From NCBI GenBank assembly GCA_019915015.1, contig JAHBBC010000010.1, positions 248,001 to 312,000 on the forward strand: a stretch of DNA of 64,000 bases, in the 5' to 3' direction. The translations under genes and the position numbers were made by a program. This document shows positions 16,106-63,994 of this stretch, piece by piece; positions within the stretch are counted from its first letter, which is position 1; every line of letters begins with the position of its first letter. This DNA is from Auriscalpium vulgare. Lineage: Eukaryota; Basidiomycota; Agaricomycetes; Russulales; Auriscalpiaceae. The notes under the pieces are model-generated. The model was given only the letters and a program-made list of their open reading frames with translations. It did no database searches and was not told the DNA's origin.

Positions 16106-19100
16106 ATGGACCAACTTTCTGCCCGTCAGTCCGGTCGCGAACTGTGTCGAGGATGTGGCAAGTGGTTCCATCCTTCCGGGCTCACCAAACATCTTCGGCG
16201 CACCACGGCACTGCGCTGTTTACAATTTCGCCAAGACTTGCGAGATGGCGACGCCGACCTCGCCGATTTTGCAACAGCTGGTCCCTCTCACACGCCAGTA
16301 GGTCGCCACGCCACGCCGACCGCTGGCCCATCAAACAGGCCGCCTTCACCCTCGGAGGTTTCCTCCCGCGCAGGATCCCCGCCCCATCCGCAGCTAGACG
16401 ACGGCGGTGCCCTCAAGTGGGATTATGCAGACGGTGCGTTCATTGTCATGCTCTGCCTTGCATGACTATCTGATGCGAGGCCTGCAACTGCTCAGAGCCT
16501 CCGCGCACGCCAAGTCCCGACTTGTGGGACCCGAACATCCCACCGGAAGAACTCGAGTGGGCAGACGACGACGAGCGAGAGCTTATCGCAGGGGCGTCTG
16601 ATGTGCGCGCCAGCGACGACGAAGACGAGGAGGAAGACAACCAGGAAGACGAGGACGAAGACGAAGGCTTCGACGCCGACGGCGAGCCCGTGTTACCAAT
16701 GGACGAGGATCGCCCCAATGCGGGTGATGTTGGCATGCAGGAGCACGATGATGAAGACGAACCTGCTTTCCCGGCAGTCGACGAGGACGAGGCAGCTCGC
16801 CTTGAGCGCCAGCAGCTGCACGATGACGAGCAAGCGCTTGGGAAGCCACCCAAAATTGTCGACTTCGGAGGGCGGGCTGGGGAGATTGTCACACAGGACC
16901 CGTCAACCTACTTGCTAGGAGTGGGCCGGTGCTAAGCACGGCAGGTACGATTCCGTTTCTAGCTTTGTGTGAATATTATTGTGTAGAATATGTAGGATAT
17001 GTAGTTACTGTGCTCTTTGACCCTCCAATCTCACAACAAACATGGACCCAACCATGCCCCAATCAATACCTGGCCGGCCTCACTCGCAAGCTCGTGCAGG
17101 CCGCCAGGTATTGAATTGGGACACTTAAGCCAAATATCCTGAGTGCAATTTTATGGGGGGAGTCTTGAGAATACAGATATTTGAGTTGGGCAGTACATTG
17201 GTAGTCAAGAGACATGGTGTCATTTACGGATGCACACCATAGTAATTCTGAAAACGATAGGAAAGAAATGTATACATAGTCTAGTGGTAAGTAGAGATGC
17301 TATGTTTCTCTTGTAGCTAAGGGAACTAGGGTTCAAATCCCACTAAGGACCCCTTGAAAAATATTAATATTTTCCGGCTATGTTAGCCGGAGTAGAGAGA
17401 CATGACGAGTTTTCCGGGTACACCAGCTACAAACTACGTCATGCTTCACGACGACCGTGGGAACTTTTTACCAAAAATAGAATTCATAGAGCTTTTGCGT
17501 CTGATACTAGAACAACTGGAATTTTACTCATATCTATTCTCCTTAGCTTACAAAATACAAAATACTGACTGAAACGAGAGTCTTTGAAAAGGTCATGAGG
17601 CAGAAAAACACGGGATTGGTGAAAAATAGACCGTGGGAACAAAGACCTATATATGGGGGTGAAGATGAAAGTTGCATGGGGGTCCAAAAACCGCGACTGG
17701 TGCTTACATAAGAAACGATTCAAGGGAATCGTAACCATGCCTATCGCGAGGCCCTGGGTGCCGATGGCAGCCAATGGGCGCCCTTCCGCAACAAGTTGGA
17801 GTGGGAGGTCGCACGGTGGGCAAAGATGCGAGGTCCCTCCTCGACCGCATTCACAGAGCTTCTGCAGATAGAGGAGGTGCATCTCTCGCAGTCGTCTTTG
17901 TAGCAACTCGTTCAGCTAATCTTGGGCTCGATTCGACCAGGTCCGTGAACGCCTCCAGCTGTCTTTCAACTCATCAAGGGCGTTGAACGCAATTATTGAC
18001 TCAAGTCTACCAAGCATCCCTGAATTCCAGCGCGACGAGATAACCGTTGACGGCGAGACTTACGAGCTCTATTCGCGGGATATCGTCCAATGCATCCGAA
18101 ATCTCTACGGCAACCCGGAGTATCTTTCGACGATGGCCTTCGCTCCCGAACGCCACTATGAAGCAGCCAACGACGACGACGCTGACGAGGATGACACTGA
18201 CGAGGACGGACAAGAGAGGGCGCGTGTGTATGGGCAGATGAATACAGGCAAATGGTGGTGGCATATTCAGGTGCGTCACTGCAGTTGTGTTCTCTCAACG
18301 ACGGTCTGCTTACATTCTGCACGTCTTAGACGATACTCGAAGACAAGACACCCGGCGCAACGGTTGTGCCGCTCATCCTGTCGTCCGACAAGACTCTAGT
18401 AACCGACTTTCGCAACAAGTCGGCGTATCCGCTGTATCTCACGATTGGCAACATCTCAAAAGAAAACCGTCGCAAGCCATCTAAACAGGCGCAAATCCTC
18501 ATTGGATATCTCCCCACCGCTCGCCTTTCCCATGTCAAGACCCAGGAGACTCGGCGCCGCGCAGTGGCAAACCTCTTCCACGCCTGTGTCCGCAAAATTG
18601 TCTCGCCGACCATCCCCCATGCCCTTCACGGCCTCAACATGTCAAGCGGCGACGGCGTTGTACGCCGTTGCCATCCGATCTTCGCGGTGTTCATCGGTGA
18701 CTACCCCGAGCAGGTGCTCGTGGCTTGCGTCAAATCAGGCGAGTGTCCAAAGTGTGTGGTCTTCCCCGAGGCGCTTGGCGCGTACACCCCAACTCTTCCG
18801 TCCCCTCGCAGCATCTCGGCTGCTCGCGAGGCCCTCTCTGCAATAGACGGAGGGCCAGAGGTGTACATTGCAGCGTGTCAGGAGGCCGGGCTGAAGCCGA
18901 TCCACCGCCCATTCTGGCAGGATCTGCCATACTCAAATGTGTTTGTCGCCATCACTCCGGACATCCTCCATCAACTGTATCAAGGCATGGTCAAACACCT
19001 TATCAGCTGGCTCACAGACGCCTTTGGCGAGTCCGAGATTGATGCGCGATGCGCTCGACTCCCTCCGAATTACAACACACGGATTTTCAAACACGGCCTG

Positions 19101-20410
19101 TCAATACTCTCGCACGTTTCGGGCCAAGAACACAAAGACATATCCCGCATCTTGCTTGGCCTCATCGTCGACCTTCCCCTCCCCGACGGCACGCCACCCA
19201 CTCATGTTGTGCGCGCCGTCCGCGCCCTCCTTGATTTTCTCTACCTTGCGCAATATCCCTCCCACAGCGACGCGACGCTTCAGTATCTCACCAAGGCACT
19301 CAAGCGCTTCCACGCCAGCAAGCACATCTTCGAACAGCTCGGCATCCGTGAGGGGTTCAACTTTCCTAAGCTCCACGGTCTTTTGCACTATGTCAAATCT
19401 ATCCAGCTCATCGGTACGACGGACAACTGCAACACGGAAGCGACTGAGCGGCTCCATATCGACCTTGCGAAGAACGCATATCGGGCATCGAACCACAAGG
19501 ACGTTTATCCTCAAATGACCAAATGGCTCGTGCGCCGCGAACAGGTTCTTCGCCACGCAAGGTTCGTTAAGTGGCGAGTCGCCAACGGCGCCCTGCCGGC
19601 TCCCGTTCCCGCCGCCGCGCCAAACCATCCTCGCATTCACATCGCCCGTAATCCCAGCGCCAAGTCTGTGTCGTTCGCGCAGCTGGCAAATCGACACGGG
19701 GCCGCCGATTTTGAGTTGGCTCTGGCATGGTATATCCTGCGAGTGCGTAACCCACAGTACACAGATGTCCAGATCGCTCAGCTCGCCACCGGCCTTCGCC
19801 TCCCCCTTCGATCTGTCGCAACGTACAACAACATCAAATTTTGGTTGGCCGATCCTCAAGCTATAGAAGGCGCCTTGGACACTCGCGACGCTGCCCTCGC
19901 CCGTCCATCGTACATCTCCGGGGGCCGCGCCACGCCGGGCCGCTTCGACACGGTGCTGGTGGACACGGGAGGCGGTGAAGACGAGGGTGTTCAAGGTGTG
20001 CTGCAGGTTCGTATATTGCGAGATTAATCGGCTGACTCGCACGCGACGCAGGGTACCGCGTCGCACAGCTCCGTGTTATCTTCAGCCTCGCGGTGAAGGC
20101 TAGACAGGCTGCATTCCCGGTGCAATACGACGGCCCCAAGTATCTGGCATTTGTGGAGTGGTTTTCGCCGTTCACAGGCGTTGCCGAGCCGGACCACCTC
20201 ATGTACCGCGTCAAACGATCTTACCGAGCTGGGGGTGCGAGGCAGTCTGCTGTGGTCGCAGTCGATGACATTCGGCGCAGCGTGCACCTGCTCCCTCGCT
20301 TTGGGCCGGTTGTGCCACGTCATTGGACATCCGCCAATGTGCTAGATCAGTGTGAGAGCTTCTATGTATTGTCGTTTGTGGACAGACATACCTACATTAC
20401 AATATACTAG
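16106..20410 (+). CDS. Plavaka-type transposase, interrupted only by element A
   Basis: Exons are 16106-16433, 16496-17876 (with element A at 16911-17734 inside it), 17941-18270, 18330-19995 and 20052-20410. Without element A they sum to 3240 nt, 1079 residues, with every phase consistent. The N-terminus has a zinc-finger-like CRGCGKWFHPSGLTKHL, followed by a long acidic linker. Then come blocks typical of Plavaka transposases: WAPFRNKLEWEVARWAK, VPLILSSDKT, YPLYLTIGNISK, SGDGVVRRCHPIFAVFIGDY, a GECPKC pair, and near the end WFSPF and LPRFGPVVPRHWT. The element moves by a cut-and-paste mechanism. It lies amid small companion genes and a TET/JBP-like gene. As it stands element A supplies an early stop, so this copy is probably inactive but recently intact. 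Confidence 0.88.
16911..17734 (+). mobile_element. Element A, hairpin-ended short element (824 bp)
   Basis: It starts CTTGCTAGGAGTGGGCC, with a 5' hairpin GCCGGTGCTAAGCACGGC, and ends with the hairpin ACGATTC-AAGG-GAATCGT followed by AA. Removing exactly these bases restores the Plavaka reading frame (TYHAYREAL). No target duplication is present beyond a possible single A. Its interior differs from the other copies but also contains a long inverted repeat (about 17055-17123, arms containing AATACCTGG and CCAGGTATT). Confidence 0.88.
17282..17340 (+). other. tRNA-like Pol III box A and box B inside element A
   Basis: TAGTGGTAAGTAG resembles a box A and GGTTCAAATCC matches the box B consensus exactly, at tRNA-like spacing. 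The arms do not fold into a proper tRNA (T-stem only three pairs, no matching acceptor). It may be a degenerate tRNA or a SINE-like head. The other four copies lack it. Confidence 0.35.
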
Positions 20411-26728: not shown

Positions 26729-29700
26729 CAGATGTCACGACTTTCCAGACGCCGTACGGCGCAAAACGGCTGGTGACCCTGCCTATGGGGTGGACGAATT
26801 CCGTCCCGATCTTCCACGACGACGTGACCTTTATTCTCCAACCGGAAATCCCACATATTACGGTGCCTTTTATAGACGACGTCCCCCTGAAGGGGCCGGA
26901 CTCGGACTACAGGACGGAAGGCGGAGGATACGAAACGATCCCCGGCAACAACGGCATAAGGCGGTTCGTATGGGAACACTTTAACAACGTTAACAGGGTA
27001 GTCCAACGAATGCGCTACTGTCATGGCACGTTCTCAGGATGGAAATCACAGCTGTGCGTACCAGAATTCTACGTGGTAGGGCATCGCTGCACACCGCAAG
27101 GAAGGATGGCAGACGAAGAAAAGGTCGCAAAGATTCGCAATTGGGGGCCGTGCACGGACCTCTCAGACGTACGGGCTTTCTTGGGGACAGTTGGAGTCCT
27201 GCGCATCTTTATCCGAAACTTTGCGCACCAAGCCCATGCCTTGACACACCTGACGAGGAAGGACGTCCCGTTCGAATGGGGACCCGAACAGTCGCGAGCT
27301 ATGGAGGACCTCAAGGAGGCAGTCCTCGCATCACCAGCGCTCCTACCGATTGATTACACGTCGGAGGCCCCCGTGATCCTAGCGGTAGACACCTCGTACA
27401 TCGCGGTGGGTTTCCTATTGAGTCAGGCGGACCCCAACGTTCCCCAAGACAGGAAGAGACACCGATATTCTCGATTTGGTAGCATCGCGCTAAACGATCG
27501 CGAAGCGCGGTTCTCGCAGCCCAAGCTGGAGCTCTATGGTCTTTTTCGAGCCCTGCGGGCCCTTAAAGTCTACCTGATAGGGGTGAGGAACCTGACCATT
27601 GAGGTCGACGCCAGGTATATCAAAGGCATGCTGGAAAATCCTGACCTCGAGCCATCGGCCAGTATGAACAGGTGGATTACTTGCTGGGAGTGGGCCGATG
27701 CGTAGCACGGCGGTACGATTCTGCCCTTGTTATGGGAGTTCTTATTTTATCAGATATGCATAATAAATGTACACCAAATGATACAGACTACTTTGACTTG
27801 ACTGATACATTCAGAGCCCCTGCAGTGCTACATGGCATAGGGCAACAGTGGGTGGACAGTCCAGGGCAGTTGGAAATAAAATCCTGGTTCCTGGGCAATA
27901 CAGCAATAAGTACTGTGGGGGGCTGCCAGAGGCTGTGTGGAGTGACATTGCCTCTCCACGGAAGCGAACATGATTAGTCAAGATAATGACATCATTCCGG
28001 GTTTTTAAATGCATTTTAAAATCCGGAATGATGTCATCATCTTTACACTTCTGCTCATACTACCTGGTTGTTCAATTCCTGTTCTGCAATATCTGTAGGT
28101 ATGACATGGTCTGAAAAGTGCTATATATGCAAGAGGCTGCTGAGAGACACTGCGTCTCTGCAGAAGTGAACATGATTAGTCATGAGGATGACATCATTCC
28201 GGGTTTTAAATGCATTTTTAAAACCCGGAATGATGTCATCATCCTTACACTTCTGCTCATGCTACCCACTGGGCTGTTTGATTACTCTGCATTATCTGTT
28301 GGCACTACATGGTCCAAGAAATGCTGTATGTGTAACAATTCATGTGAATCACCCAGAGCAAAAGTGACGGAGGGAAAACACAAGTGGACAGGGCGTGGGA
28401 GTGAATTACCAAAAAAGGCGACGGAGATAGTCGTTGCATGGGTCAAAAAAATGCTGTATGTAGATTACATAAGAAACGATTCATAGGAATCGTAATAGGC
28501 ATCCTGATGTTCCATTTTGAGCTAGTGCACGTGCCGGGACTCTTCCACGGGCCCGACGGCCTATCCAGGAGGCGCAGGCAACCAGGAGACGCTCCGGAAC
28601 AGGAAGACGACTTCGACGACTGGGTTGATGCGGTGTATGGTTTCGCACATATTGTAAACATGGTAGTCCCGAAGACAGCGCAAGAGAGAGCCTCGCGACG
28701 GCAAGCTGGATGGACGGGGCCAGGAAGCATAGCAGACGAACATGGGGCTGGTTCAAGCCAGGACGCGATACGTCGCGAGGAGGCCCGGCGCTCCCACGAT
28801 GAACCGGCCGACGTCTGGGCAACTACGGTCCAAATGCAACCCGCACCAGCACAGGACGCGACGTATCGCGATGTTCCCAGATCAGACAAGGCTCATGAAG
28901 CTGATAAGCGGCTGGAACTAGTCAGGGACTGGTTAGGGACCCTGGCGCGGCCAGCGGACTTGACCGACGAACAGTTCGCTTGTTTCGCTAGATACGCACT
29001 CCAGTTCTTCAGGGATGGGGACCGCCTTTTCAAAAGGCACCACCAAGGCAGGCACCAACTCGTGCTGGGAGGAGACCGACGTATCGCGGTCCTCAAAGCA
29101 GCTCATGACGATGTCGGACACAAAGGCGTCTACGCGACGCGGATGATGCTGTTGGAGCGTTTCTGGTGGCCATACGTGGACGCAGACGTGGCCTGGTGGG
29201 TGAGAACGTGCCATATTTGTGAAACCCGACTAGTTCGCCACAGCCTGATACCGCCAACGGTGGCAACGCCGGCGAACCTTTTCGCAAAGATGTATGCAGA
29301 CACCATGCATATGCCAGCAAGCGGGGGATTCAAATACATCGTGCAAGGACGCTGCTCCGTAACCCACTATCCAGAGTGGAGAATGCTAAGGGCGGAGACG
29401 GCGGACGCCATCGCGAAATGGATTTTCGAAGACGTCTTGTGCCGGTGGGGCGCCCTGCGAGAAGTGGTCACGGACAACGGCGCACCGTTCGTGTCGGCCT
29501 TGGAATCCCTGTCGCAAAAGTATGGAGTCCGGCACATTCGAATATCGGGATATAATTCGCGAGCAAACAGAATAGTCGAGCGGTCTCACTTCGACGTACG
29601 TCAAGCGCTCTACAAGGCAGCCGATGGAAATGCTGCAAAATGGTCCTCGGTCGCGTACTCGGTATTCTGGTCGGACAGGATAACGATCAGGCGGAGGATG

Positions 29701-30312
29701 GGCTGCTCGCCATACCTCGCGGTAACAGGAACGCAGCCGCTAATGCCGCTGGATATCATCGAGGCTTCATACTTGATGCCTCCGCCCGAGTCTCTACTGT
29801 CTTCCACAGACCTCATAGCGCGCAGGGCAATTGCCCTACAAAAGAGAAAAGCCCAGTTAAGGACCATCCACGACAAAGTCTTTGAAGCACGACGTATCGC
29901 GGCGGTAAAATTCGAACGTGACCACGAAGCGACGATTCGCGACTACAATTTCAAGAGAGGCGACTTGGTCCTCCTACGGTTCACGCGGTACGAGAAGTCA
30001 TTAGATCGCAAAATGCTTCCGCGCTACGATGGACCGTTCGTGGTAATTGGCCGACGGAAAGGAGGACCTTACGTGCTTGCGGACCTCCACGGTGCGCTCT
30101 TCGACCAACCGGTCGCGGAGTTTCGCGTCCTGCCTTACTTCGCACGAACGAACATTGCGCTGCCAGAGTTGCCCGAATTTCTGGACGTCCCACAGTCCAG
30201 GGTGGACGAGCTACTTCATGGAGATAGGCAGGATCACGATGTCATTCATGAAGAGGAAGCAGATGACCCCACCCTGGAAGACGATGACAAGGACGACGAG
30301 ATCACCGTCTAA
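26729..30312 (+). pseudogene. Gy-II gypsy pol, 5' truncated and interrupted by element B
   Basis: Homology to Gy-I pol starts abruptly within RT (TTFQTPYGAKRLVTLPMGW) and continues through the YIDD-equivalent FIDDVPLKG, RNase H, and an integrase with H-H-C-C finger (HDDVGHKG..CHICE) and D-D-E residues (YADTMHM, TDNGAPF, NRIVERSHF). Element B (27680-28495) sits between RNase H and integrase. Removing it restores an uninterrupted frame, RWIIGILMFHFELVHVPG, matching Gy-I. The frame then runs to a stop at 30312. The 5' half of the element, with gag and protease, is absent. It has no chromodomain. Confidence 0.88.
27680..28495 (+). mobile_element. Element B, hairpin-ended short element (816 bp)
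   Basis: It starts CTTGCTGGGAGTGGGCC, has a 5' hairpin GCCGATGCGTAGCACGGC, and ends ACGATTC-ATAG-GAATCGT-AA. It holds two copies of a long palindrome (27984-28040 and 28187-28241) built from GACATCATTCCGG and CCGGAATGATGTC arms, apparently through an internal duplication of about 200 bp. Excision restores Gy-II pol exactly, leaving at most one duplicated A. Confidence 0.88.
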
Positions 30313-30433: not shown

Positions 30434-31007
30434 CTTGCTGGGAGTGGGCCGACGGGTAGCGCGGCAGTACGATTCCGCTCTGAGGGGGTTTCTGGTTACA
30501 TAATCAAATATATACATAAATAATAGTCTTGAGACAGTATGTACTAGACACCAAAACGCGACTGGGAGTGGCCCTGGTACCAAATTTAAGTCATGGTGGG
30601 CAATACTGTACACTGGAGGGCATTAAAATTTACATAAGTTGGGTGTGCAGCTGCACCTGAGGTGGTTGTTGTGAAATCAAGAGTGATGACATCATTTCGG
30701 GCTCTAATTGTAATTTAAAACCCCCGAGTGACATCATCGTATTTCTGCCTGTGTTGTCTGGTGCGTCTCAGTTGTCGCAACATCACTGTTCTGCAACTTC
30801 TGTATATGTTGCATGGCCTAGTAATCAGTGTATTTAGGCAATCATTTGTGTATATTGTGTGGAGCAAATTTAATGAGGAGGGGTAAAGTCGTGAGTTGAC
30901 ATAGCGTGGGAGCAAATTTCCATAAAGGGCGACACAGATGATCGTTGCATGGGGTCGAAAAAACGCTGTATATGGATGACATAAGCAACGATTCGTAGGA
31001 ATCGTAA
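30434..31007 (+). mobile_element. Element C, hairpin-ended short element (574 bp)
   Basis: It starts CTTGCTGGGAGTGGGCC, with 5' hairpin GCCGACGGGTAGCGCGGC (one mismatch), and ends ACGATTC-GTAG-GAATCGT-AA. A diverged internal palindrome lies at 30688-30740. It is inserted about 60 bp downstream of the Gy-II polypurine tract, in the presumed LTR. Confidence 0.82.
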
Positions 31008-34498: not shown

Positions 34499-36750
34499 TG
34501 ATACGCCTGCTACGCGTGTGGCTACTGTTTGCGCATTTTCGATGCACAGTGGCACTCGCACGGTGGCTCCGACCGTTGCCATGCATCCCCGACTCTATCG
34601 TTCTCGCCGAAACACTCGCACAACAGCTAGCTCTGTAGCTGTCCGCACAATCGTTTGCTGCAAGTTCGCCGACACTCGCTCTCACTTGCACATCATCCTA
34701 CGACAGTCGCCGAAGTCACGCCACGTCCCCTGCACCCTAGTCACTCATCAGCAGTCAGACAATGTTCTCCCAAGGTCGCACCGACTCGCTATACGTTCAG
34801 GCGTGCATACACAGCTCGCGCACACTCGCACTCGACATCGCTGCTTCGCCCGAGCATCGCTACACGTTTGCATCGTTCGCCTGAGCCAGCCACGTCATCG
34901 CCGAGGTCGCCCGACTCGTCCGAGCATCTAGAGCAATCCATCAACTGCATAGTCCGTCGGATCTTGGCCATGTCTCACATCAATTAGCCCACATCACCGA
35001 AGCCAGAGCCATGAGATAGCGACCCCGTCCACGTCGTCGCAGCCGTTCGCCGGCGCTCGCCTGTACTCAGCGGACACAGCTGCACATGCCCGACCTCCCA
35101 GCAACTCAGAGATGCAGCGCAGACTCGCAGACCATCGAGCTATTGCCCAGCGACATCGGAGACGATCCCCGAGCCCGAGACATCAGCGGACCGGATCATC
35201 AACCACTTCTGATGCATTGCGGTTGCATCCCGAGCATCCCGGAGGTTTCGCCGAAGATAGCATCATAGTTGCGCCTAGACCGTCGCGATACTGTCCCCTC
35301 ATGTCGCAGCCGTTCGCCGACGTTCGCCTATGTTCAGCGAGCTCAGCTACACGTCTAGGGTCTCTCAGCAACTCGCCAACGATACAGTGACTCGCTGAAC
35401 ATCGAGATATCACTCAGCAACGCAGGAGACAGTGCCCAAGCCCGAGCCATCAGTGACCCGGATCAACGACTACTTTTGACGCGTCGCTGATGCGCCCCGA
35501 GTGTCCCGGAGACTTTGCTGGAGATATCTCCGCTTTTGTGTCTAGGCCCTTGATATCTCTTCTCTCTCACTTGCTGGGAGTGGGCCGACGCTTAGCGCGG
35601 CAGTACGATTCCAAGCTCAATACAGGGCTGGATGATCCTGTAACTCTGTACAATTGCAAGTACATGAAATAATGATGAAGACTACTTGATTAATGCTATA
35701 ACACTATCCCTGAAACACTTCGGTAACATGCGTGCTCTCTCAAGCCACCGGTACTAAGCACCAAATGGGGTTGTCACTGCTGGCCAGCCTTGAGCCTGCA
35801 TCGGAGCAAGGTTACGACCCCTGGGCTGGGGCACGTTTTGAGTAAACAACATAATATCAACATGATCACGTGTAATAATGTCAGCGATGATGTCATTCCG
35901 GGGTCTTAAATTGTGTTTAAAACCCGGAGTGATGTCATCGTCTTTCTGCTACTGCTGTTCAAGCCCTGCAATATATCACTGTTTTGCAGCTTCTGTAGGT
36001 GCTCTATGGTCTGAAATATACTGCAAATGGAGCAATGTATGTGAATCATTCCGGGCAAATGAGAGGAAGGTGAAAGTGCAAGTGGATGTGAGTGGACATA
36101 GCGTGGGAGTGAACTCCCAAAAAAGGCGACACAGATGATCGTTGCATGGGGTCAAAAAATGCTGGATGTAGATGACATAAGCAACGATTCAAAGGAATCG
36201 TAATTCGCTATAATTCGCCGATGCTTCGCACGGCTTCGCTGACTGCATCGCATGACTCGTGTAGCTACTCCGACGCATTTTCCCATGTATAAGTGTAGCT
36301 AGCAGCGTCTGCATGCAATAGGAACTTCTCCCACCAGAGACAGCACCTCAAACCTCGAGAACTATCGTCTTTCACCTTCGCAGCGCATCGTTTAGCCCTT
36401 TTATCGACATCGACATCGCATTCACCTTCGCAGCGCATCGTTTACGCACTTGCATATTGAGAACCTTCGCCCTATCGTCGCCCATCGTCGCCCAGCGTCG
36501 CCTATCGTCCCCGACCTTCGCCCTACCTCCCCAACTCTCGCTACGCCACCCCAAGCCTTGTATTGCCGCCCACACCTTCGCCGACACTCCCCCTCATCCC
36601 CCGTTGCTCGCTACACTTCCCCAGTGACAGCTGCGACTCTCCGAGCCCCCTGGTAGACCTGGGACACGCCCCCCCAACTAAAACAGTACTACTCGACGAG
36701 CAGGGTTTGGTTTTGTCATCTGACCGCCTGTCCGACGAGTTTGGTCATCA
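34499..36750 (+). repeat. 5' LTR of Gy-I, containing element D
   Basis: It begins TGATACGCC and ends GGTCATCA. The length is 2252 bp; subtracting element D gives 1618 bp, against 1622 bp for the 3' LTR. The 4-bp difference is fully explained by an indel (CCAA) near 36530. Confidence 0.92.
35570..36203 (+). mobile_element. Element D, hairpin-ended short element (634 bp)
   Basis: It starts CTTGCTGGGAGTGGGCC, with 5' hairpin GCCGACGCTTAGCGCGGC, and ends ACGATTC-AAAG-GAATCGT-AA. The sister LTR at 44390 gives the empty site, CTCTCATTCGC; the filled site is CTCTCA, element, TTCGC. No target bases are duplicated, or a single A if the last base is counted as flank. An internal palindrome lies at about 35884-35938. 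Confidence 0.92.
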
Positions 36751-36768
36751 TTTGTGGAGCCCACCGCG
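36751..36768 (+). promoter_or_regulatory. Gy-I primer-binding-site region
   Basis: TTTGTGGAGCCCACCGCG directly follows the LTR, and the identical stretch follows the Gy-III LTR at 51179. The TGGAGCCCACC core has the form of a tRNA 3'-end complement; the tRNA is not identified. Confidence 0.7.
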
Positions 36769-37215
36769 GGGGGCACTACCAGAATTCTTCCAGGACGCTC
36801 ATCCTCGACTCCTCCCTCTCGTCGACATCGCTATCCGACTCGTGTCTCGTCGCTCGCAGAGGAGCTACGTGAATCGTTCGTCGTTTGGCCCCCCCGTCCA
36901 GGAGAGCTCTTTTCCTTCGTTCCCAGTCCTTTTGCAACCCACAACAACCTCTCCGACGTCTCGCACAGCGACAGCGAGGTTCAGCAAATTTTAGGAGACC
37001 TTTCACCGTTCCCTGGAGCCGCTACACCATCGCCTTTGCATCGCTCGCAATCGCATCGCACACCTGATCGCACACCCCCGTCGCCGTCACCACAGCCGTT
37101 ATCGCCACCTCGTAATCTCACCGATCGCCTTGCATCACGTCCGACATCGTCTATCGTCAATCCACTCCCTACAACTGCCCTACCCACTCCAGTCAATCCC
37201 CTACCTCGTCGCATC

Positions 37216-39402
37216 ATGGCTACTCCCGCTATGCCCGCCCGTGGTGATCGCACCGCTCCAACGTTTACGCCCGAGCAGCCCCGATCGATGAGGCGATTTT
37301 TCGCCGACCTCGAGATCTTGTTCCTGCGTTGTGCCGTCGCCGATGGTGAAGCAAAGAAGCAATGGGCGCAGAGCTATGTCCCGATCGAAGTCGCCGACCT
37401 TTTCGACGCTATGCCCGAGTTCACCGACGCAACCAAGACGTACAAGGACTTCAAGGAAGCCGTTGCAAAGCTCTACCCAGGAGCTAGTGAAGACAAGGCG
37501 TACTCTGTCGCCGATCTCGAGCGCTTGGTCGCTGACCGCCATCGGAGAGGCATCGCGACTATCGAAGAGTTTGCTGCGTTCCATCGAGACTTCCTAGCCA
37601 TCTCCAGCTACCTCATCCGCCTTCGCCGACTCTCCGACCTGCAGCAACAGCGCGAGTTTGTTCGTGCATTCCCACCCGAGCTCTGGAAGTTTGTCCACGC
37701 TCGCTTGCAGATCAAGAAACCAGATCACGAGCCTGAGGACCCGTATCTCGTCGCAGACGTTAAGGACGCAGCCAATTATGTTCTCCATGACACAGCAGCC
37801 CCGTCCGTGCACACCGACTCGACCAGCATCGCCAGTTCGTCACTAGCATCAGCTCCAGCGATCAAGACCGAGGAGCTACTCGCTACGCTCGTCCGATCGC
37901 TCACGCAAGCAGTCCAGGCGAACGCTATCGCTCCAGCGACGTCCACCACGAATTCGCCCGCGCCCGCCGACGCTCCTCGTCGAGACAATCGCTGCCATTA
38001 CTGTGGCATCGCCGAGCATCGTATAGTGCAATGCCCCACCGTCGACGAAGACATTCGCACAGGATATGTCAAGCGCAATCATGAAGGTCGTGTTATCCTA
38101 GCCAGCGGTGCCTTCGTTCCGACCTCGATTGTCGGCAGCTATCTTCGCGAACGTGTTATGGAATGGCACAGGCGAAATCCAGGCCAGCGCGCCCAAGCAC
38201 AGATGATGATCGCAATCGAACCGCTATCGACGTTCACGCTCTCCACCGACAATCGCATCGCTGCCCTCGAAGCTGAGCTGTCTGCACTGCGAGGCTCACG
38301 CGAGTCGTACAAGCTGGTCTTCGACGGCGTTGAAGTGCCCTCTCGTCGACCTGCGGCCGCAAAGCCTGCGCATAACCCAGCAGCTTCCACCCGAGACGTT
38401 CGCGCTCCAGCCACGAGCCATACGCCGCAAGTTCCCCGAGCACCAGTGCACCCTTTCGCCGAAGCACGCGACGCTACTACAGCCCCAGTCAAGCCTCGTT
38501 TCGTCCCAGCGGATCCGCCTAGACCACCGGCAAACGCCCGCGACGGTGCACATAAGACAAACGCGCCGGTACACAAGGCAGAGATCGCAGACAACGTCTT
38601 CGCCCGCTCGATGAAAGCCAGTTCGATTACGCTCACACCCGAGGAGCTCCTATCGCTTTCGCCAGAGGTTCGCGCCAAGTACCGCGACGTCGTAACGCCC
38701 CGCCGATCAGCAAATGAGCAAGTCACGTACACTATGTCCACTTTCGACGAAGTCGCAGAAGCTGTCGTCTCGCCCGAGGCAGCTATCGCAGAAGCTGAAG
38801 CCAGGACCTTTGCCAACTTTGTCCCCGCTCCTCGCGTCATCGCACCCGATCGCAGCAACCCTCCGCCTGGTGTTTTAGTCCTCGACGACCCGTACGAATC
38901 ATATCTAAAGGATCTCTCACCTGAGGAGGAGCCAAAGACCCTCACAGTCGCCCGAGAATCGGCAGCGCTTCGCTCGATCGACGCGATCATCGACAACAAG
39001 GATACAGTTGAATGTTTGCTGGACCCAGGCTCGCAGATCATATCTATGTCTGAGGAAATTTGCCATCATCTCGGTCTCGCCTACGACCCCTCGATTCGCA
39101 TTCGCGTTCAAAGTGCCAATACACATTTTGACAGCTCGCTTGGTTTAGCTCGCAACGTCCCAGTCAAAATAGCGAACATCACCATCTATTTGCAGATACA
39201 TGTCATCCGCAACGTCGCCTATGACATCCTACTTGGTCGCCCATTCGACGCGTTGACAGAGAGCATCGTGCGCAACTTCAAGAATGAAGATCAGACGATT
39301 ACCTTGCGTTGCCCAAACTCGACGAGCGTGACGACCGTGCCTACGTTTGCCCGAGGGAAGCATCGATTTCGAGTCCCCGCTGAGACAATATTCACTGCTT
39401 GA
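37216..39402 (+). CDS. Gy-I Gag-protease
   Basis: From the first in-frame ATG it encodes 728 residues. The same frame is open upstream to 36754 without an ATG, so a longer product from another start is possible. A capsid-like helical region follows the start, then a CCHC zinc knuckle (CHYCGIAEHRIVQC) near residue 259. Near residue 600 is LLDPGSQI, the aspartic protease site with DPG in place of the usual D-S/T-G; the same variant occurs in Gy-III. The end overlaps pol by about 56 bp in a different frame. Confidence 0.88.
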   Translation: MATPAMPARGDRTAPTFTPEQPRSMRRFFADLEILFLRCAVADGEAKKQWAQSYVPIEVADLFDAMPEFTDATKTYKDFKEAVAKLYPGASEDKAYSVADLERLVADRHRRGIATIEEFAAFHRDFLAISSYLIRLRRLSDLQQQREFVRAFPPELWKFVHARLQIKKPDHEPEDPYLVADVKDAANYVLHDTAAPSVHTDSTSIASSSLASAPAIKTEELLATLVRSLTQAVQANAIAPATSTTNSPAPADAPRRDNRCHYCGIAEHRIVQCPTVDEDIRTGYVKRNHEGRVILASGAFVPTSIVGSYLRERVMEWHRRNPGQRAQAQMMIAIEPLSTFTLSTDNRIAALEAELSALRGSRESYKLVFDGVEVPSRRPAAAKPAHNPAASTRDVRAPATSHTPQVPRAPVHPFAEARDATTAPVKPRFVPADPPRPPANARDGAHKTNAPVHKAEIADNVFARSMKASSITLTPEELLSLSPEVRAKYRDVVTPRRSANEQVTYTMSTFDEVAEAVVSPEAAIAEAEARTFANFVPAPRVIAPDRSNPPPGVLVLDDPYESYLKDLSPEEEPKTLTVARESAALRSIDAIIDNKDTVECLLDPGSQIISMSEEICHHLGLAYDPSIRIRVQSANTHFDSSLGLARNVPVKIANITIYLQIHVIRNVAYDILLGRPFDALTESIVRNFKNEDQTITLRCPNSTSVTTVPTFARGKHRFRVPAETIFTA

Positions 39403-42400
39403 ACATCTCGCCGACGGAGAAGAAGTCGCCCTCATCTTAGAAGGTGACGATCAAAATGTCCGCGCTATCGCATATACCACACTCGACTCGGCGGACGAGT
39501 CTTCGCTTCAATTCGCCTATTTGACCGCTTCCGACGCTCGCTCTTTACTCCCCGATCATGCTATGCCTTCCTCTTTCACTCTATTATTTCCCGATTCCGC
39601 CCCGACTATCGCAGCAACTTGCCCGACGTTCCCTACCGCTTCTAAGCGAAATATTTGTTCGCACACTTTGCCTGAGTTCTCGCCCGATACCCCCGACCTC
39701 CCAACTCGCTCCACGTTCGCCAAGCGCAAGTACAAACCTGTCTCGCAGAAGGTCAAGCCGATCCTAGGTTCAGTCGCAGAAGAATTTCGCATCATCCGAG
39801 ACATCAAAGGAGACCCGCTCGCATCGCTACCTTATCTCCCGACACATCCGACGCTGTTTACTCCCACAGGACGCTACATGCAAGAACGCAAAGACACTGT
39901 TGATCGCCAAGAGTGCTATGCGTTCCTACAGCCAGCTGAACGCGCCCTGCTTCATCATGTCATCGCAGTGCACAACGACGCATTCGCCTGGGACGACACT
40001 GAGCGAGGCAGCTTCAAGCGAGAGTTCTTTCCACCTGTACAGATCCCTGTTGTCCCGCATACACCCTGGGTACAGCGAAATATTCCGATTCCACCTGGCA
40101 TTTACAAGGAAGTCTGTGCACTCATTCGTCGCAAGATGGATGCGGGCACCTACGAGCCTTCGAACTCATCCTATCGCTCTCGCTGGTTTTGTGTCGCAAA
40201 GAAAGACGGAAAGTCGCTGCGAATCGTACACAGTCTCGAGCCTCTCAACGCCGTCACAATCGCGCACTCTGGAGTCCCCCCGACGCCGGAGCATCTCGCT
40301 GAACAGTTTGGTGGTCGCGCATGCGGAGGAATCCTCGATTTATACGTCGGATACGACGAGCGACTTATCGACGAACGCTCTCGAGATTTCACGACGTTCC
40401 AGACGCCCTTTGGAGCCCAACGACTTGTCACCCTTCCGATGGGTTGGACGAACTCAGTGCCTATTTTCCACGACAATGTCACGCATATTCTGCAGCCCGA
40501 GATTCCAGCGATTACAGTCCCCTACATCGACGACGTACCACTCAAAGGACCTCCGACCGAGTACCCCGACGAAAATGGCATCGCAGAAGCCATCCCCGAG
40601 AACGCAGGGATTCGCCGATTTGTCTGGGAGCATTTCCAGAATGTCAATCGCATATTGCAGCGCATGAAGTACTCTGGAGGAACGTTTTCTGGAACCAAGT
40701 CGATCCTCATCAGCCGCGAGTTCACCGTTCTAGGACATCGATGCACACCAGAAGGACGTCGCCCCGACGACTCGACCGTCTCAGTGATCCGCAACTGGGG
40801 CCCTTGTAAAGACCTCTCAGACGTTCGCGCATTCCTAGGAACCATCGGAGTTTGTCGCATATTCATCGATTCATTCGCCAAACGCGCACACGTCTTGACG
40901 CATCTCACTCGCAAAGGTGTCCCGTTCGAGTTCGGACCGCAGCACATAGCAGCGCAAGAGGATCTCAAAGCAGCTTTATTAGCATCGCCAGCACTGCGTG
41001 CTATTGACTATGAGTCGCCCGACCCTGTTATTCTCGCTGTTGATTCGTCCTACATTGCTATCGGGTATATCTTAGCTCAAGACGTCGAGACACCCAAAAG
41101 GAAGATTCGCTATGTCAATCGTTTCGGGTCGATCACGCTGAACGACCGAGAGCGTCGCTTCTCTCAGCCTAAACTCGAGATCTATGGCTTATTTCGCTCG
41201 CTGCGCACACTCCGTCTTTATTTAATCGGTGTCCGCAACCTGATAGTTGAAGTCGACGCGACTGCGATTAAGGGAATGCTCAAGAATCCCGACCTCGTCC
41301 CCAGCGCCAGCATCAACCGATGGATTCTCGCTATCATTACTTTCCACTTCGTCCTTCGCCACGTACCAGGTATCAGCCATGGCCCCGACGGTCTCTCAAG
41401 ACATCGCGACGAATCGCCTAAGCAGTCCGAGCACGACGACGACTTCGACGATTGGCTAGACAATGTACAAGGCTTCCTTCATATAATTTATCCATCGCCT
41501 TCAGCCTTTCGATCGCGCATACTCGCCCCGCCCACCCACCCTTCGCCGATACTCGCTACGTTCTCGCAGACCGAGGACGGTCCTGAAATCAGTGAGGAGG
41601 AGGTGCCCGAGCTCAGCTACAACGACGTCCCTCGCTCCGACTCGGCGAAAGCCCACGACAAGCGCGTACAAGCAGTCCACGATTGGCACGAGAACCCAGT
41701 ACGCCCAGCTCAGATGTCCGAGGCAGAATTAGCAACATTCATCCGCTACGCGACTCGCTTTTTCATCGACGACACTCGCCTATGGCGCCGCAGTCCCGAC
41801 GGTGCACACAAGCTCGTAATTCAGCCAGCCAGTCGACTCAGAGTACTCGCAGAATGTCACGATCAAGCTGGACATCGCGGAATCTTCGCTACAAAATCGC
41901 TCATACAGGAACGCTTCTGGTGGCCGGCGTCCGAGGCCGACATCATGTGGTACGTTCGCAGCTGCCTCATCTGCCAGCAACGCCAAAAGCGACAAGTTCT
42001 TATGCGCCCGACCGTTGCACCGCCTGCCGCACTCTTTGCCAAGATCTACGTCGACACTATGCATATGCCGCCCTCGAATGGTTATCGCTACATCGTTCAA
42101 GGTCGCTGTTCGCTCACGCACTACCCCGAGTTTCGCCTATTGCGACGCGAGACAGCCAAAGCCATCGCAGACTGGGTCTTTGAAGATATCCTATGTCGCT
42201 GGGGTTCGCTCAGCGAGATTGTTACAGACAACGGCGGTCCATTTGTCAAAGCTCTCGACTACCTATCGAAGAAGTACAACGTCCGACATATTCGCATCAG
42301 TGGCTACAACTCCCGAGCAAATGGAATCGTAGAACGTGCACATTTCGATGTACGACAAGCCCTATACAAGTCCTGCGATGGAGAACAGAATCGCTGGTCG

Positions 42401-43054
42401 ACAGCGGCGCACACCGTTTTCTGGTCCGAGCGACTGACGACTCGCCGTCGCATGGGCTGCTCGCCCTACTTCGCTGTTACAGGCTGCCACCCGCTGATTC
42501 CACTCGACATCTCGGAGGCGACATACCTTCTTCCTGCACCAACATCGATCCTCTCGACCACCGATCTCATCGCGCGCCGCGCTATAGCACTGCAGAAACG
42601 ACATGAACACGTCGCAGAACTTCGCTCAACAGTCTATGAACATCGGCTCGCCGCCGCGAAACGTTTTGAGCAAGAACACGCCGCTACCATCCGAGATTTC
42701 GACTTCAAGCGAGGAGCGCTAGTGCTTATTCGTCACACAGCAATCGAGAAGTCGCTGAACCGCAAGATGCGCGCTCGGTACCTTGGTCCGCTCGTAGTCA
42801 TATCAAGGAACCGTGGAGGTGCCTATCTTGTCGCCGAGCTCGACGGTTCTGTTTTCGATCGCCCTATAGCAGCATTCCGAGTCATCCCATTCTTTGCACG
42901 CAACGAGATTAAGCTCAGTCTCGACGCTATTGACATAGACACAGCCCGACTCCGTGACCTCGAAGCCTCGCAGTCCCTAGGAGATGACGACGATCTTGAA
43001 ACGCTACCAATCGCCGAAAACGACGAGCCCGATCATGCACAAGTTGAAGACTAG
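39347..43054 (+). CDS. Gy-I Pol (RT, RNase H, integrase)
   Basis: About 1235 codons with no ATG at the beginning, in the +1 frame relative to gag, so it is probably made by frameshifting in the overlap at 39330-39402. RT carries LVTLPMGWTNSVP and YIDDVPLKG near residue 392. RNase H follows (VILAVDSSYIAIGY). Integrase has the H-H-C-C finger (HDQAGHRG..CLICQ) and D-D-E residues in YVDTMHM, VTDNGGPF and NGIVERAH. A GPY/F-like region near the end has RYLGPLVVI. There is no chromodomain; the C-terminus is acidic. All motifs look intact, so the element may be functional. Confidence 0.92.
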   Translation: MPEGSIDFESPLRQYSLLEHLADGEEVALILEGDDQNVRAIAYTTLDSADESSLQFAYLTASDARSLLPDHAMPSSFTLLFPDSAPTIAATCPTFPTASKRNICSHTLPEFSPDTPDLPTRSTFAKRKYKPVSQKVKPILGSVAEEFRIIRDIKGDPLASLPYLPTHPTLFTPTGRYMQERKDTVDRQECYAFLQPAERALLHHVIAVHNDAFAWDDTERGSFKREFFPPVQIPVVPHTPWVQRNIPIPPGIYKEVCALIRRKMDAGTYEPSNSSYRSRWFCVAKKDGKSLRIVHSLEPLNAVTIAHSGVPPTPEHLAEQFGGRACGGILDLYVGYDERLIDERSRDFTTFQTPFGAQRLVTLPMGWTNSVPIFHDNVTHILQPEIPAITVPYIDDVPLKGPPTEYPDENGIAEAIPENAGIRRFVWEHFQNVNRILQRMKYSGGTFSGTKSILISREFTVLGHRCTPEGRRPDDSTVSVIRNWGPCKDLSDVRAFLGTIGVCRIFIDSFAKRAHVLTHLTRKGVPFEFGPQHIAAQEDLKAALLASPALRAIDYESPDPVILAVDSSYIAIGYILAQDVETPKRKIRYVNRFGSITLNDRERRFSQPKLEIYGLFRSLRTLRLYLIGVRNLIVEVDATAIKGMLKNPDLVPSASINRWILAIITFHFVLRHVPGISHGPDGLSRHRDESPKQSEHDDDFDDWLDNVQGFLHIIYPSPSAFRSRILAPPTHPSPILATFSQTEDGPEISEEEVPELSYNDVPRSDSAKAHDKRVQAVHDWHENPVRPAQMSEAELATFIRYATRFFIDDTRLWRRSPDGAHKLVIQPASRLRVLAECHDQAGHRGIFATKSLIQERFWWPASEADIMWYVRSCLICQQRQKRQVLMRPTVAPPAALFAKIYVDTMHMPPSNGYRYIVQGRCSLTHYPEFRLLRRETAKAIADWVFEDILCRWGSLSEIVTDNGGPFVKALDYLSKKYNVRHIRISGYNSRANGIVERAHFDVRQALYKSCDGEQNRWSTAAHTVFWSERLTTRRRMGCSPYFAVTGCHPLIPLDISEATYLLPAPTSILSTTDLIARRAIALQKRHEHVAELRSTVYEHRLAAAKRFEQEHAATIRDFDFKRGALVLIRHTAIEKSLNRKMRARYLGPLVVISRNRGGAYLVAELDGSVFDRPIAAFRVIPFFARNEIKLSLDAIDIDTARLRDLEASQSLGDDDDLETLPIAENDEPDHAQVED
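41569..41602 (+). promoter_or_regulatory. Internal copy of hairpin plus purine tract in Gy-I pol
   Basis: GACCGAGGACGGTC, seven bases, then CAGTGAGGAGGAG. This is the same module as at 43285-43319, with the same spacing. It lies between RNase H and integrase, where some retroelements have a central polypurine tract, and is read in frame as part of pol. Confidence 0.6.
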
Positions 43055-43319: not shown

Positions 43320-44941
43320 TGATACGCCTGCTACGCGTGTGGCTACTGTTTGCGCATTTTCGATGCACAGTGGCACTCGCACAGTGGCTCCGACCGTTGC
43401 CATGCATCCCCGACTCTATCGTTCTCGCCGAAACACTCGCACAACAGCTAGCTCTGTAGCTGTCCGCACAATCGTTTGCTGCAAGTTCGCCGACACTCGC
43501 TCTCACTTGCACATCATCCTACGACAGTCGCCGAAGTCACGCCACGTCCCCTGCACCCTAGTCACTCATCAGCAGTCAGACAATGTTCTCCCAAGGTCGC
43601 ACCGACTCGCTATACGTTCAGGCGTGCATACACAGCTCGCGCACACTCGCACTCGACATCGCTGCTTCGCCCGAGCATCGCTACACGTTTGCATCGTTCG
43701 CCTGAGCCAGCCACGTCATCGCCGAGGTCGCCTGACTCGTCCGAGCATCTAGAGCAATCCATCAACTGCATAGTCCGTCGGATCTTGGCCATGTCTCACA
43801 TCAATTAGCCCACATCACCGAAGCCAGAGCCATGAGATAGCGACCCCGTCCACGTCGTCGCAGCCGTTCGCCGGCGCTCGCCTGTACTCAGCGGACACAG
43901 CTGCACATGCCCGACCTCCCAGCAACTCAGAGATGCAGCGCAGACTCGCAGACCATCGAGCTATTGCCCAGCGACATCGGAGACGATCCCCGAGCCCGAG
44001 ACATCAGCGGACCGGATCATCAACCACTTCTGATGCATTGCGGTTGCATCCCGAGCATCCCGGAGGTTTCGCCGAAGATAGCATCATAGTTGCGCCTAGA
44101 CCGTCGCGATACTGTCCCCTCATGTCGCAGCCGTTCGCCGACGTTCGCCTATGTTCAGCGAGCTCAGCTACACGTCTAGGGTCTCTCAGCAACTCGCCAA
44201 CGATACAGTGACTCGCTGAACATCGATATATCACTCAGCAACGCAGGAGACAGTGCCCAAGCCCGAGCCATCAGTGACCCGGATCAACGACTACTTTTGA
44301 CGCGTCGCTGATGCGCCCCGAGTGTCCCGGAGACTTTGCTGGAGATATCTCCGCTTTTGTGTCTAGGCCCTTGATATCTCTTCTCTCTCATTCGCTATAA
44401 TTCGCCGATGCTTCGCACGGCTTCGCTGACTGCATCGCATGACTCGTGTAGCTACTCCGACGCATTTTCCCATGTATAAGTGTAGCTAGCAGCGTCTGCA
44501 TGCAATAGGAACTTCTCCCACCAGAGACAGCACCTCAAACCTCGAGAACTATCGTCTTTCACCTTCGCAGCGCATCGTTTAGCCCTTTTATCGACATCGA
44601 CATCGCATTCACCTTCGCAGCGCATCGTTTACGCACTTGCATATTGAGAACCTTCGCCCTATCGTCGCCCATCGTCGCCCAGCGTCGCCTATCGTCCCCG
44701 ACCTTCGCCCTACCTCCCCAACCAACTCTCGCTACGCCACCCCAAGCCTTGTATTGCCGCCCACACCTTCGCCGACACTCCCCCTCATCCCCCGTCGCTC
44801 GCTACACTTCCCCAGTGACAGCTGCGACTCTCCGAGCCCCCTGGTAGACCTGGGACGCGCCTCCCCAACTAAAACAGTACTACTCGACGAGCAGGGTTTG
44901 GTTTTGTCATCTGACCGCCTGTCCGACGAGTTTGGTCATCA
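43320..44941 (+). repeat. 3' LTR of Gy-I
   Basis: It is 1622 bp, begins TGATACGCC and ends GGTCATCA. It is nearly identical to the 5' LTR and preserves the empty site of element D at about 44390. Confidence 0.92.
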
Positions 44942-47529: not shown

Positions 47530-47601
47530 TGGTCAGGCCCAGAGTCGAACTGGGGACCTCCCGATAGATCTGGGATGCTGTAACCACTCAGCTACCCGAC
47601 C
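47530..47601 (-). tRNA. tRNA-like sequence, possible anticodon UCU (Arg)
   Basis: 72 nt with perfect acceptor (GGTCGGG/CCTGACC, one G-T), D-stem (GCTG/CAGC), T-stem (CCCAG/CTGGG) and a discriminator A. The anticodon stem has four pairs and an A-C mismatch. The loop GATCTAT lacks the universal T33, so the anticodon reading is uncertain. It is antisense to the LINE, about 30 bp before its first ATG. It may be a pseudogene or tRNA-derived segment. Confidence 0.6.
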
Positions 47602-50343: not shown

Positions 50344-51178
50344 TGATGGGACCCACCGAGCTACAGGCACCGAAACGGGCCAATCGCACCGCTACAGACG
50401 GACACACACCCCCGAGACCCCCGTAGGGCGTCGAGGCACCAACACGACCACCATGCGCTACTCCCGAGGCCAGGCGACACAGCTGCGAGAACGTTGCAGT
50501 GTAGGGGAGGCGTACCGTGGAGAGGCGAGACTTAGCAGGGCGCGGGTGCACGGACCGTGGGAGAGCTGACGAAGCAGCGGTATATAGATGCGATTCGAGC
50601 TCTTGTATAGGGACTTTTGGACCTCGGGGCCTACACCTGAGACTACACCTTTCATTTCCACAACACAGCAACCTCTGCTAGACGCGACCAGAACCGACTA
50701 GGCCGGCAAGATGACTTAGGCAGCGGGACGGGGCCGGCCATCGGGTCGCACTCTCACCGCGACACTACGGGCCATGCCGCCCAGACCCCACCACAGACTG
50801 GCGTGATACAGTGTGGTAGGGCATTTGTGACTGACGTTTATGTTATAGGATAGTGGCCACGGACGGTACAGATGAAGACGGTCGGGTCGGACGGTCGGTG
50901 CTACACGGCGACACGCACGGAACTCACGACGGCGGCCGTGAACGGACGAAGACCTCTACCAACACGAGAGGGCGCGTCGTATGACGGTCGGGTAGTGCAG
51001 GGCAGATAGGCTAAGAGGCGAGGCCAGGACCCGTGGGGTCCTGGGTGGTTTTGTTCGGGTCACGGTCGCGATCTTGGTTGCTTCCCCCGATCCACCACCT
51101 CTTGGGCCAGCGGTTGGCTGCTCGCTCCCTCCATTTCTATTGACGTTCCCCGGGCCTTCCCCAGGGTTCATCTCATCA
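50344..51178 (+). repeat. 5' LTR of Gy-III
   Basis: It begins TGATGGGACC, ends CTCATCA and is similar to the LTR at 3096-3953. The next bases repeat the Gy-I primer-binding region. It is inserted in the LINE RT ORF. Confidence 0.88.
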
Positions 51179-63458: not shown

Positions 63459-63994
63459 TTACGATTCCTATGAATCGTTGCTTATGTCATCTACATCCAG
63501 CTTTTTTTCGACCCATATAACGACAGTCTGTGTCGCCTTTTTTGGAAATTCACTCCCACGCTTTGTCCACTCGCGCTTTCAGCTCCCTCACCAGCCTCAC
63601 GTCTACTCGGGATGATACACTCACTGTACACATATTGTTGCCTATAAAGTATTCCACACACACAGTAATATTACTAGGATTGAGCGTATAGAACAGCAGA
63701 GCGTATAGAACAGCAGAGCGTATAGAACAGCAGAGCGTATAGAACAGCAGAGCGTATAGAACAGCAGAGCATATAGAACAGCACGATTGCTAGCAAGAGA
63801 TGATGACGTCATTCCGGCTATTAAATTGCATTTAAAACCCGAAATGATGTCATTGCTCTTGAGCTCAAAGCGCAGGGCAAAGATGTCAAATAAAGTAGTC
63901 TGTTACATATTCTTCCAATTTGAGAAGATTATTGAACCCCGTATTGCACCTGGAATCGTACTGCCGCGCTATGCGTCGGCCCACTCCCAGCAAG
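63459..63994 (-). mobile_element. Element E, hairpin-ended short element (536 bp)
   Basis: On the minus strand it begins at 63994 with CTTGCTGGGAGTGGGCC, has hairpin GCCGACGCATAGCGCGGC, and ends at 63459 with ACGATTC-ATAG-GAATCGT-AA. The internal palindrome near 63798-63852 contains TGACGTCA. A 17-bp array lies inside it. Only six bases of flank remain to the right. Confidence 0.88.
63682..63783. repeat. 17-bp tandem repeat, six copies
   Basis: GAGCGTATAGAACAGCA repeated six times, the last copy with one change (GCATA), inside element E and absent from copies A-D. Confidence 0.95.

Follow-up and report, generated by a model that had tools for sequence, protein, structure and literature searches.

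Short non-autonomous elements with Helitron2-type ends and a 25.9-kb RepHel element sharing these ends in Auriscalpium vulgare

Five elements in the window and the structure of their ends

The stretch analysed, a 64-kb window (C10:248001-312000) of a genome comprising 51.6 Mb in 96 contigs, holds five short elements with common ends, copies A to E, all lying at the coordinates and bearing the ends originally described. The window is a nest of transposons (18366-20027, 26773-30312, 36754-43054, 48524-50569 and 57843-62027), with a Plavaka transposase fragment, Ty3/gypsy-type elements and an RT frame, and a tRNA-Arg (tct) gene is located at 47530-47601 on the minus strand. The elements and their parts are as follows, in window positions and with the strand in Helitron orientation.

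16911..17734, minus strand: copy A, 824 bp, non-autonomous, AAGG loop subfamily
17715..17732, minus strand: 5'-terminal hairpin of copy A, containing the 5'-ATIR
16947..16954, minus strand: 3'-ATIR of copy A, GGAATCGT on the minus strand
16925..16942, minus strand: 3'-subterminal hairpin of copy A
27680..28495, minus strand: copy B, 816 bp, within a Ty3/gypsy pol frame between its RNase H and integrase parts
28476..28493, minus strand: 5'-terminal hairpin of copy B
27694..27711, minus strand: 3'-subterminal hairpin of copy B
30434..31007, minus strand: copy C, 574 bp, GTAG subfamily
30988..31005, minus strand: 5'-terminal hairpin of copy C
30448..30465, minus strand: 3'-subterminal hairpin of copy C, one pair mismatched
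35570..36203, minus strand: copy D, 634 bp, AAAG subfamily, within one LTR of an LTR retrotransposon
36184..36201, minus strand: 5'-terminal hairpin of copy D
35605..35612, minus strand: 3'-ATIR of copy D
35584..35601, minus strand: 3'-subterminal hairpin of copy D
44301..44480, plus strand: empty site of copy D in the partner LTR, uninterrupted, 180/180 bases identical
63459..63994, plus strand: copy E, 536 bp, ATAG subfamily, containing a short tandem repeat
63461..63478, plus strand: 5'-terminal hairpin of copy E
63952..63959, plus strand: 3'-ATIR of copy E
63963..63980, plus strand: 3'-subterminal hairpin of copy E

In pairwise comparison, similarity among the five copies is mainly confined to their ends. 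It extends over 65-133 bp at the hairpin end in most pairs and over about 320-340 bp at 72% in the pairs B/D and C/D, with none above threshold at this end between A and E, and over 42-58 bp at the CTTGCT end, while a few short similar pieces are found inside B, C, D and E. Long near-perfect palindromes are present in copy B (27977-28046 and 28179-28248) and copy A (17057-17120), and altered forms of the copy B palindrome, TGACATCATTCCGGG, can be made out by eye in C, D and E. Besides the five perfect matches to ACGATTC-N4-GAATCGT, the window contains one match with two mismatches (expected 0.21 within the allowed mismatches); this latter hairpin, at 46046, looks unrelated and has a similar stretch in locus L069. 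The CTTGCT end likewise occurs five times exactly and once with three mismatches (expected 0.31 within the allowed mismatches).

The elements had originally been read the wrong way round. The RepHel frame of the long relative described below starts on the side of the hairpin and reads towards CAAG, hence the hairpin end is the 5' and the CTTGCT/CAAG end the 3' end; what had been taken for the 3' hairpin is the 5' terminus, and the presumed 5' hairpin is the 3'-subterminal one. In working orientation, the elements start with 5'-TT and ACGATTC-N4-GAATCGT and finish with GGAATCGTAC, the 3' hairpin and 14 nt ending in CAAG-3', followed by a host T. The 3'-ATIR GGAATCGTAC directly adjoins the 3' hairpin on its upstream side, about 35 nt from the end, and is the inverted partner of the 5'-ATIR TACGATTCC, which lies 1 bp in from the 5' end inside the terminal hairpin. 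The repeat that had been noticed just inside the CTTGCT end is indeed present as ACGATTCC in four of the five copies, whereas copy B differs by one base (ACGATTCT). TT was found in all 42 records of the 5' end and CAAG in all 25 records of the 3' end, the 3' hairpin standing 14 nt from the 3' end in each of these 25, in some with a mismatched pair. Long terminal inverted repeats and canonical TC..CTRR ends are lacking, as had been stated. In DNA folding against shuffled sequences, the 5' hairpin is strongly stable (z of -7.6 for 20 nt of copy A and -4.1 for 59 nt of the long element on C4), whereas folding of the 3' hairpin is weak (z of 0.25 for the autonomous 3' end and -1.35 for copy A).

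The compensatory change noted in the 3' stem is real in that CGC/GCG in D and E corresponds to TGC/GCA in A and B, but copy C is mismatched (CGG/GCG), and a C-A mismatch occurs in the stem of two further end types, one of them that of the 25.9-kb element. An alignment of 13 distinct 3' ends, those of two sister families among them, comprises 90 pair cells, of which 96.7% hold standard pairs. The statistical check suggested for this stem yielded a small signal, with two of seven pairs changing on both sides (5 cells). Only 1 of 500 shuffles of the 13-row alignment reached both the score and the cell count; two changed pairs, however, were obtained in 119 of 500 (27 of 500 in a 12-row version), and the observed number of further pair types in 500 of 500. 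Moreover, sliding the partner by +2 gave a covariation score of 0.159 versus 0.168 (13-row) and 0.139 versus 0.139 (12-row). Covariation thus supports the 3' stem only modestly. The varying loop letters were rejected as covariation, as they mark subfamilies.

Copy number and insertion sites

At up to one mismatch, the hairpin is found at 263 places in the genome, these being the same on both strands because the hairpin is palindromic, versus one in the control. Perfect oriented hairpins amount to 216 (control 0) and CTTGCT ends at up to one mismatch to 255 places (control 1). When the first 100 exact occurrences of the end motif were matched to the 91 perfect hairpins on C1 to C9, 64 pairs resulted. 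Of these, 56 span 470-2,571 bp, and eight, including the 25.9-kb element on C4, reach 4.8-34.9 kb; 36 of the 100 motifs and 27 hairpins were left without partner, perfect hairpins only being considered. Most of the short pairs have well-defined lengths that go with the hairpin loop: 470 bp in 10 of 14 ATA-loop pairs, 569-574 bp in 10 of 12 GTA-loop pairs, 547 bp in all four GAA-loop pairs and 601 bp in five of seven GTG-loop pairs. Several lengths are seen with the AAA loop (635, 810 and 1,171-1,207 bp, and others) and with the AAG loop (825-828, 884-889, 1,435 and 2,400 bp), and copy E, with its 536 bp, is longer than most ATAG-subfamily elements elsewhere (mostly 470 bp). Loop letters are therefore non-random subfamily markers. 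Numerous copies at separate sites agree in length and are sharply bounded, which identifies them as transposed units. Outside the window, at C4:632794-655832, 15 exact CTTGCT end motifs recur at a spacing of about 1,404 bp with one gap of 4.8 kb; no perfect hairpins lie inside this tandem array among the matches listed, and it is possibly a satellite born from one element.

For characterizing the insertion sites, the joined flanks of 23 distinct copies (24 records, L019 and L020 being the same copy) were compared with the collected sequences. Intact empty sites, gap-free at the junction, were obtained for six copies, all conforming to N^T: GGGG^TCTT, CATA^TGTT, GTTG^TTCA, GGAT^TTAG, GCCG^TATA and CGAA^TGAG in Helitron orientation, the last being the site of copy D. 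Neither these six base-level sites nor the rejoined protein-level site of copy B gave any indication of a target-site duplication. All 25 real end records have T directly after CAAG, and the base preceding the 5' end (n = 42) is G in 21, A in 15, T in 5 and C in 1. The LTRs hosting copy D and its empty site (34499-36750 and 43320-44941) show 98.7-99.7% identity; as the element is present in just one of them, copy D jumped after the insertion of that retrotransposon. At the protein level, rejoining the flanks of copy B restores a continuous Ty3/gypsy frame, and the flanks of a copy inside a Helitron frame (L067) likewise rejoin in frame.

Double 5' hairpins 19-21 bp apart were detected in at least five places (C1, C13, C22, C24 and C26). 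The one on C1 (L004) matches copy D at 97.5% but has an extra hairpin at the 5' end, its first stretch being closer to copy C, and at another locus (L011) a GTAG-type 5' stretch adjoins an AAGG-type 5' end. Multiple 5' termini have been explained by self-insertion and subsequent transposition from the outer 5' end in the published account of FoHeli elements (PMC5148889), and double 5' hairpins are what would be expected from composites of this type. Head-to-tail joined ends, considered as footprints of circles, were rejected: none was found at up to two mismatches, and the ten places at three mismatches are chance-like.

A 25.9-kb element with the same ends and related RepHel families

The test set beforehand, a search for a long Rep/helicase-encoding copy with these ends, succeeded twice, on C4 (C4:750851-776747, 25,897 bp) and on C22 (C22:541075-566955, 25,881 bp). 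In both, Helitron_like_N (C4:755957-756598; C22:546181-546822) and PIF1 (C4:753050-753694; C22:543274-543918) are encoded in one stop-free frame of 2,476 aa, the last coding base of which, stop codon included, is 81 bp from the element end GGAATCGTACTGCCGTGCCCTGCGTCGGCCCACTCCCAGCAAG and its following T. The profile search gave at least 50 Helitron_like_N matches genome-wide. Host flanks of the two elements differ directly after the terminal T, and their 5' hairpins (C4:776728 and C22:566936) are the nearest upstream in the right sense among the matches listed, which are complete for C4, whereas AAAG and GAAG loops are covered only in part for C22. The two 5' ends agree at 58/58 inner bases, with divergent flanks beyond. 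Over 1,500 bases compared, identity amounts to 99.87%. The elements were read in pieces covering ends, frame and domains, with catalytic residues seen in relatives only. When 56-58 bp of the autonomous 5' end are aligned with the window copies, copy B is the closest (96.6%), followed by C and E (91%), D (89%) and A (79%). The part of the C4 element upstream of the RepHel gene (L088, L090) appears by eye to be coding and intron-containing, and probably represents cargo genes.

Among RepHel relatives, those on C13 and C52 (both 85% identical in the C-terminal part) and on C10 (75%) have the family end motif in the same sense with 2-3 mismatches in 43, and hairpins upstream on C13 and C10 would give elements of 29.1 and 28.4 kb, judged by coordinates only; such a 3' end was not found at up to three mismatches for two relatives on C47 (63%). 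The motif pair LTLH[LM]H and Y[VI]T[DE]YITK, the latter the two-tyrosine motif, occurs in 20 of 31 Helitron loci, the other 11 being without it. Two sister families end in GGAATCGTACCGCCATGCTCTGCAATGGCTCTCTAAAAGCTAG and GGGATCGTCCTGCCATGCTCTGCAATGGCCTTTTAAAGACTAG, each followed by T, thus showing the same plan with CTAG before T; their ATIR is similar and their hairpin spacing identical. The 3'-ATIRs of the 2,482- and 2,323-aa families are of the CGGTACGATTCC and GGACGATCC types, respectively.

It is unlikely, though possible for the 2,482- and 2,397-aa families, that the short elements are moved mainly by other RepHel families (2,482, 2,478, 2,397 or 2,323 aa), the 25.9-kb elements being only relatives. 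For the 2,482-aa family this might be argued from its 3' end, which carries GGAATCGTACCGCC with identical hairpin spacing, and from near-identical, likely young copies. However, 3' ends were available for four families, and CACTCCCAGCAAG terminates only that of 2,476 aa; those of 2,482, 2,323 and 2,478 aa have TAG before T and were consequently set aside as the exact partner. The 2,397-aa Helitrons were set aside as well: the family end 8 kb downstream of the one on C13 belongs to an inserted 2.4-kb element, as the copies on C7 and C9 are uninterrupted, and the family's own ends were not found. Comparing copies of the 2,482-aa family did not reveal its 5' end. Two of its 5' parts (L069 and L073) diverge from the other copies at different points, each directly after ATCA, and might be 5' ends or truncations; a further copy (L070, from position 997) lies at the edge of a pol-like frame with a Copia-type look by eye.

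The C-termini of some RepHel proteins look cysteine peptidase-like by eye (CAYDSLLTTLY, HFTSR and YYYDG in L065, HFTSR also in L086), while Pfam gave no cysteine peptidase domain in L065 or L086. As a deubiquitinase-like domain has been reported in other Helitrons (PMC9741609), this stretch could be such a domain. A PDB sequence search with a RepHel relative returned no matches. PF14529 has five matches genome-wide, none of them in the 2,476-aa partner, and no endonuclease family was found in a 2,217-aa RepHel relative.

Probable mobilization in trans and comparison with known Helitrons

Copies A to E share both ends with the 25.9-kb Helitron and are thus likely its small hitch-hikers. They are very probably non-autonomous Helitrons with a Helitron2-type end plan, and are likely mobilized in trans by the 2,476-aa RepHel via rolling-circle copying. 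This reading builds on the shared ends, the frame with its domains, precise insertion at N^T without duplication, fixed-length subfamilies and nested and double-hairpin composites; the mobilization itself we infer from sequence comparison. The original proposal of HUH-type, rolling-circle movement was right in kind, the partner being a RepHel with PIF1 and the same ends. RepHel would probably nick at the 5' hairpin, whereupon the displaced strand would probably be unwound and copied up to the 3' end. There, the 3'-ATIR may replace the hairpin's own arm in pairing with the 5'-ATIR, creating the stop signal, a switch proposed as termination model for Helitron2 (PMC3627910). Insertion would then occur at a T, mostly after a purine.

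IS200/605-like Y1 elements and Replitrons are other HUH systems. It is highly improbable that one of these moves the elements: hairpins at both ends and the lack of terminal inverted repeats and duplications would fit, but the same ends are found on a Helitron RepHel in two copies, with PIF1, and RepHel relatives carry the two-tyrosine motif, by which this alternative is largely refuted. Just as implausible is a TIR (MITE) or retroelement (SINE) family with an incidental hairpin, since short length, high copy number, internal palindromes and a tRNA-type promoter-like stretch seen by eye in copy A and the 2.4-kb element are countered by empty sites without duplication, absence of a long TIR, a fixed 3' end sequence instead of a poly-A or variable tail, and the failure of ARAGORN to find a tRNA gene in copy A.

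The hairpin pair and the ATIRs constitute a compact testable substrate for the unproven Helitron2 start/stop model, and one genome combines an intact-looking autonomous partner with hundreds of short copies. With its high copy number, the family would still likely escape finders based on TC..CTRR, and the first reading, being reversed, illustrates that such elements are readily assigned the wrong orientation. A further-reaching idea, possible but rather doubtful, is that of a hybrid-end lineage combining a Helitron2-type 5' hairpin and ATIR with a Helitron1-like 3' end and target, giant cargo-bearing autonomous copies of 26-29 kb and a swarm of 0.5-2.4 kb satellites, with 5' hairpins stacking by self-insertion beside an existing hairpin. 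If true, the 5' hairpin would be both initiation signal and preferred target, and a direct test of the ATIR-switch model of rolling-circle termination would become possible.

By the structure of its ends, the family is filed as a Helitron, Helitron2-like. Rep (HUH) and a PIF1-type helicase share one frame in the same-ended autonomous copy, the catalytic residues being seen in relatives only; the six empty sites are free of duplication; and the 3' hairpin at 14 nt falls in the range typical of Helitrons (about 10-14 nt from the end), albeit with weak folding energy. Characteristic of Helitron2 are a hairpin at the 5' terminus that includes the 5'-ATIR, 0-2 bp from the end, and a 3'-ATIR directly upstream of the 3' hairpin, both present here. 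Helitron1 is marked by 5' TC and 3' CTRR, in contrast to TT and CAAG here (CTAG in two sister families), and by strict A^T insertion, in contrast to a preceding A in only 15 of 42 cases. Helentrons bear a C-terminal AP endonuclease on RepHel, for which PF14529, the one model applied to the partner, gave no match, and insert at TT instead of at N^T with mostly a purine before.

The end structure had been considered unlike that of any named family, but two hairpins and an asymmetric terminal inverted repeat are the published definition of Helitron2 (PMC3627910), where, as here, a 5'-ATIR 0-2 bp from the 5' end forms the 5' hairpin and the 3'-ATIR lies just upstream of the 3' hairpin. Differing from that description, the 3'-ATIR is located at about 35 instead of 20-30 nt from the end, the target is N^T instead of TTTT^T/C, and the 3' CAAG before T is close to the CTRR before T of Helitron1. 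A Helitron2 with a TET/JBP gene has been named in Agaricus bisporus (PMC12730594), hence the kind is not new to Agaricomycetes. No published family with these exact end letters was recognized in the literature searched by words, not by sequence; the kind is known, while the particular family appears to be undescribed.

FoHeli elements of Fusarium oxysporum (PMC5148889) are likewise fungal, with an ATIR-containing 5'-terminal hairpin in FoHeli1/2 and composites of several 5' termini and one 3' terminus, but have other ends (TCAG..ATTTT and TGCCT..CTCCTGT), a TNAT^A target in FoHeli1/2 and a size of about 5-11 kb versus 25.9 kb here. Proto-Helentron-Pi from Phytophthora (PMC4067079) resembles the present family in its 5' TT, insertion before T without duplication, absence of an endonuclease and additional genes carried by a long element (about 14 kb there), differing in its 3' CTAG and A^T target as opposed to CAAG and purine-biased N^T; its excerpted description mentions no 5' hairpin, unlike the situation here. 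Helentrons with their HINE/DINE-1 derivatives (PMC4067079) also comprise non-coding elements with subterminal inverted repeats and a 3' stem-loop, but have a TT target and a C-terminal endonuclease. Closer in host are HELPO1 and HELPO2 of the basidiomycete Pleurotus ostreatus (PMC4289320), with a subterminal 3' hairpin, cargo genes and, in HELPO2, an off-consensus end (CTTG), in contrast showing an A^T target and a T[C/G] 5' end, and in the descriptions compared neither 5' hairpin nor ATIR. The off-consensus 3' end and the T target of the present family recall Helitron1 and proto-Helentron-Pi (PMC4067079), and as the two sister families combine CTAG before T with a comparable ATIR and identical hairpin spacing, the lineage may bridge published Helitron classes.
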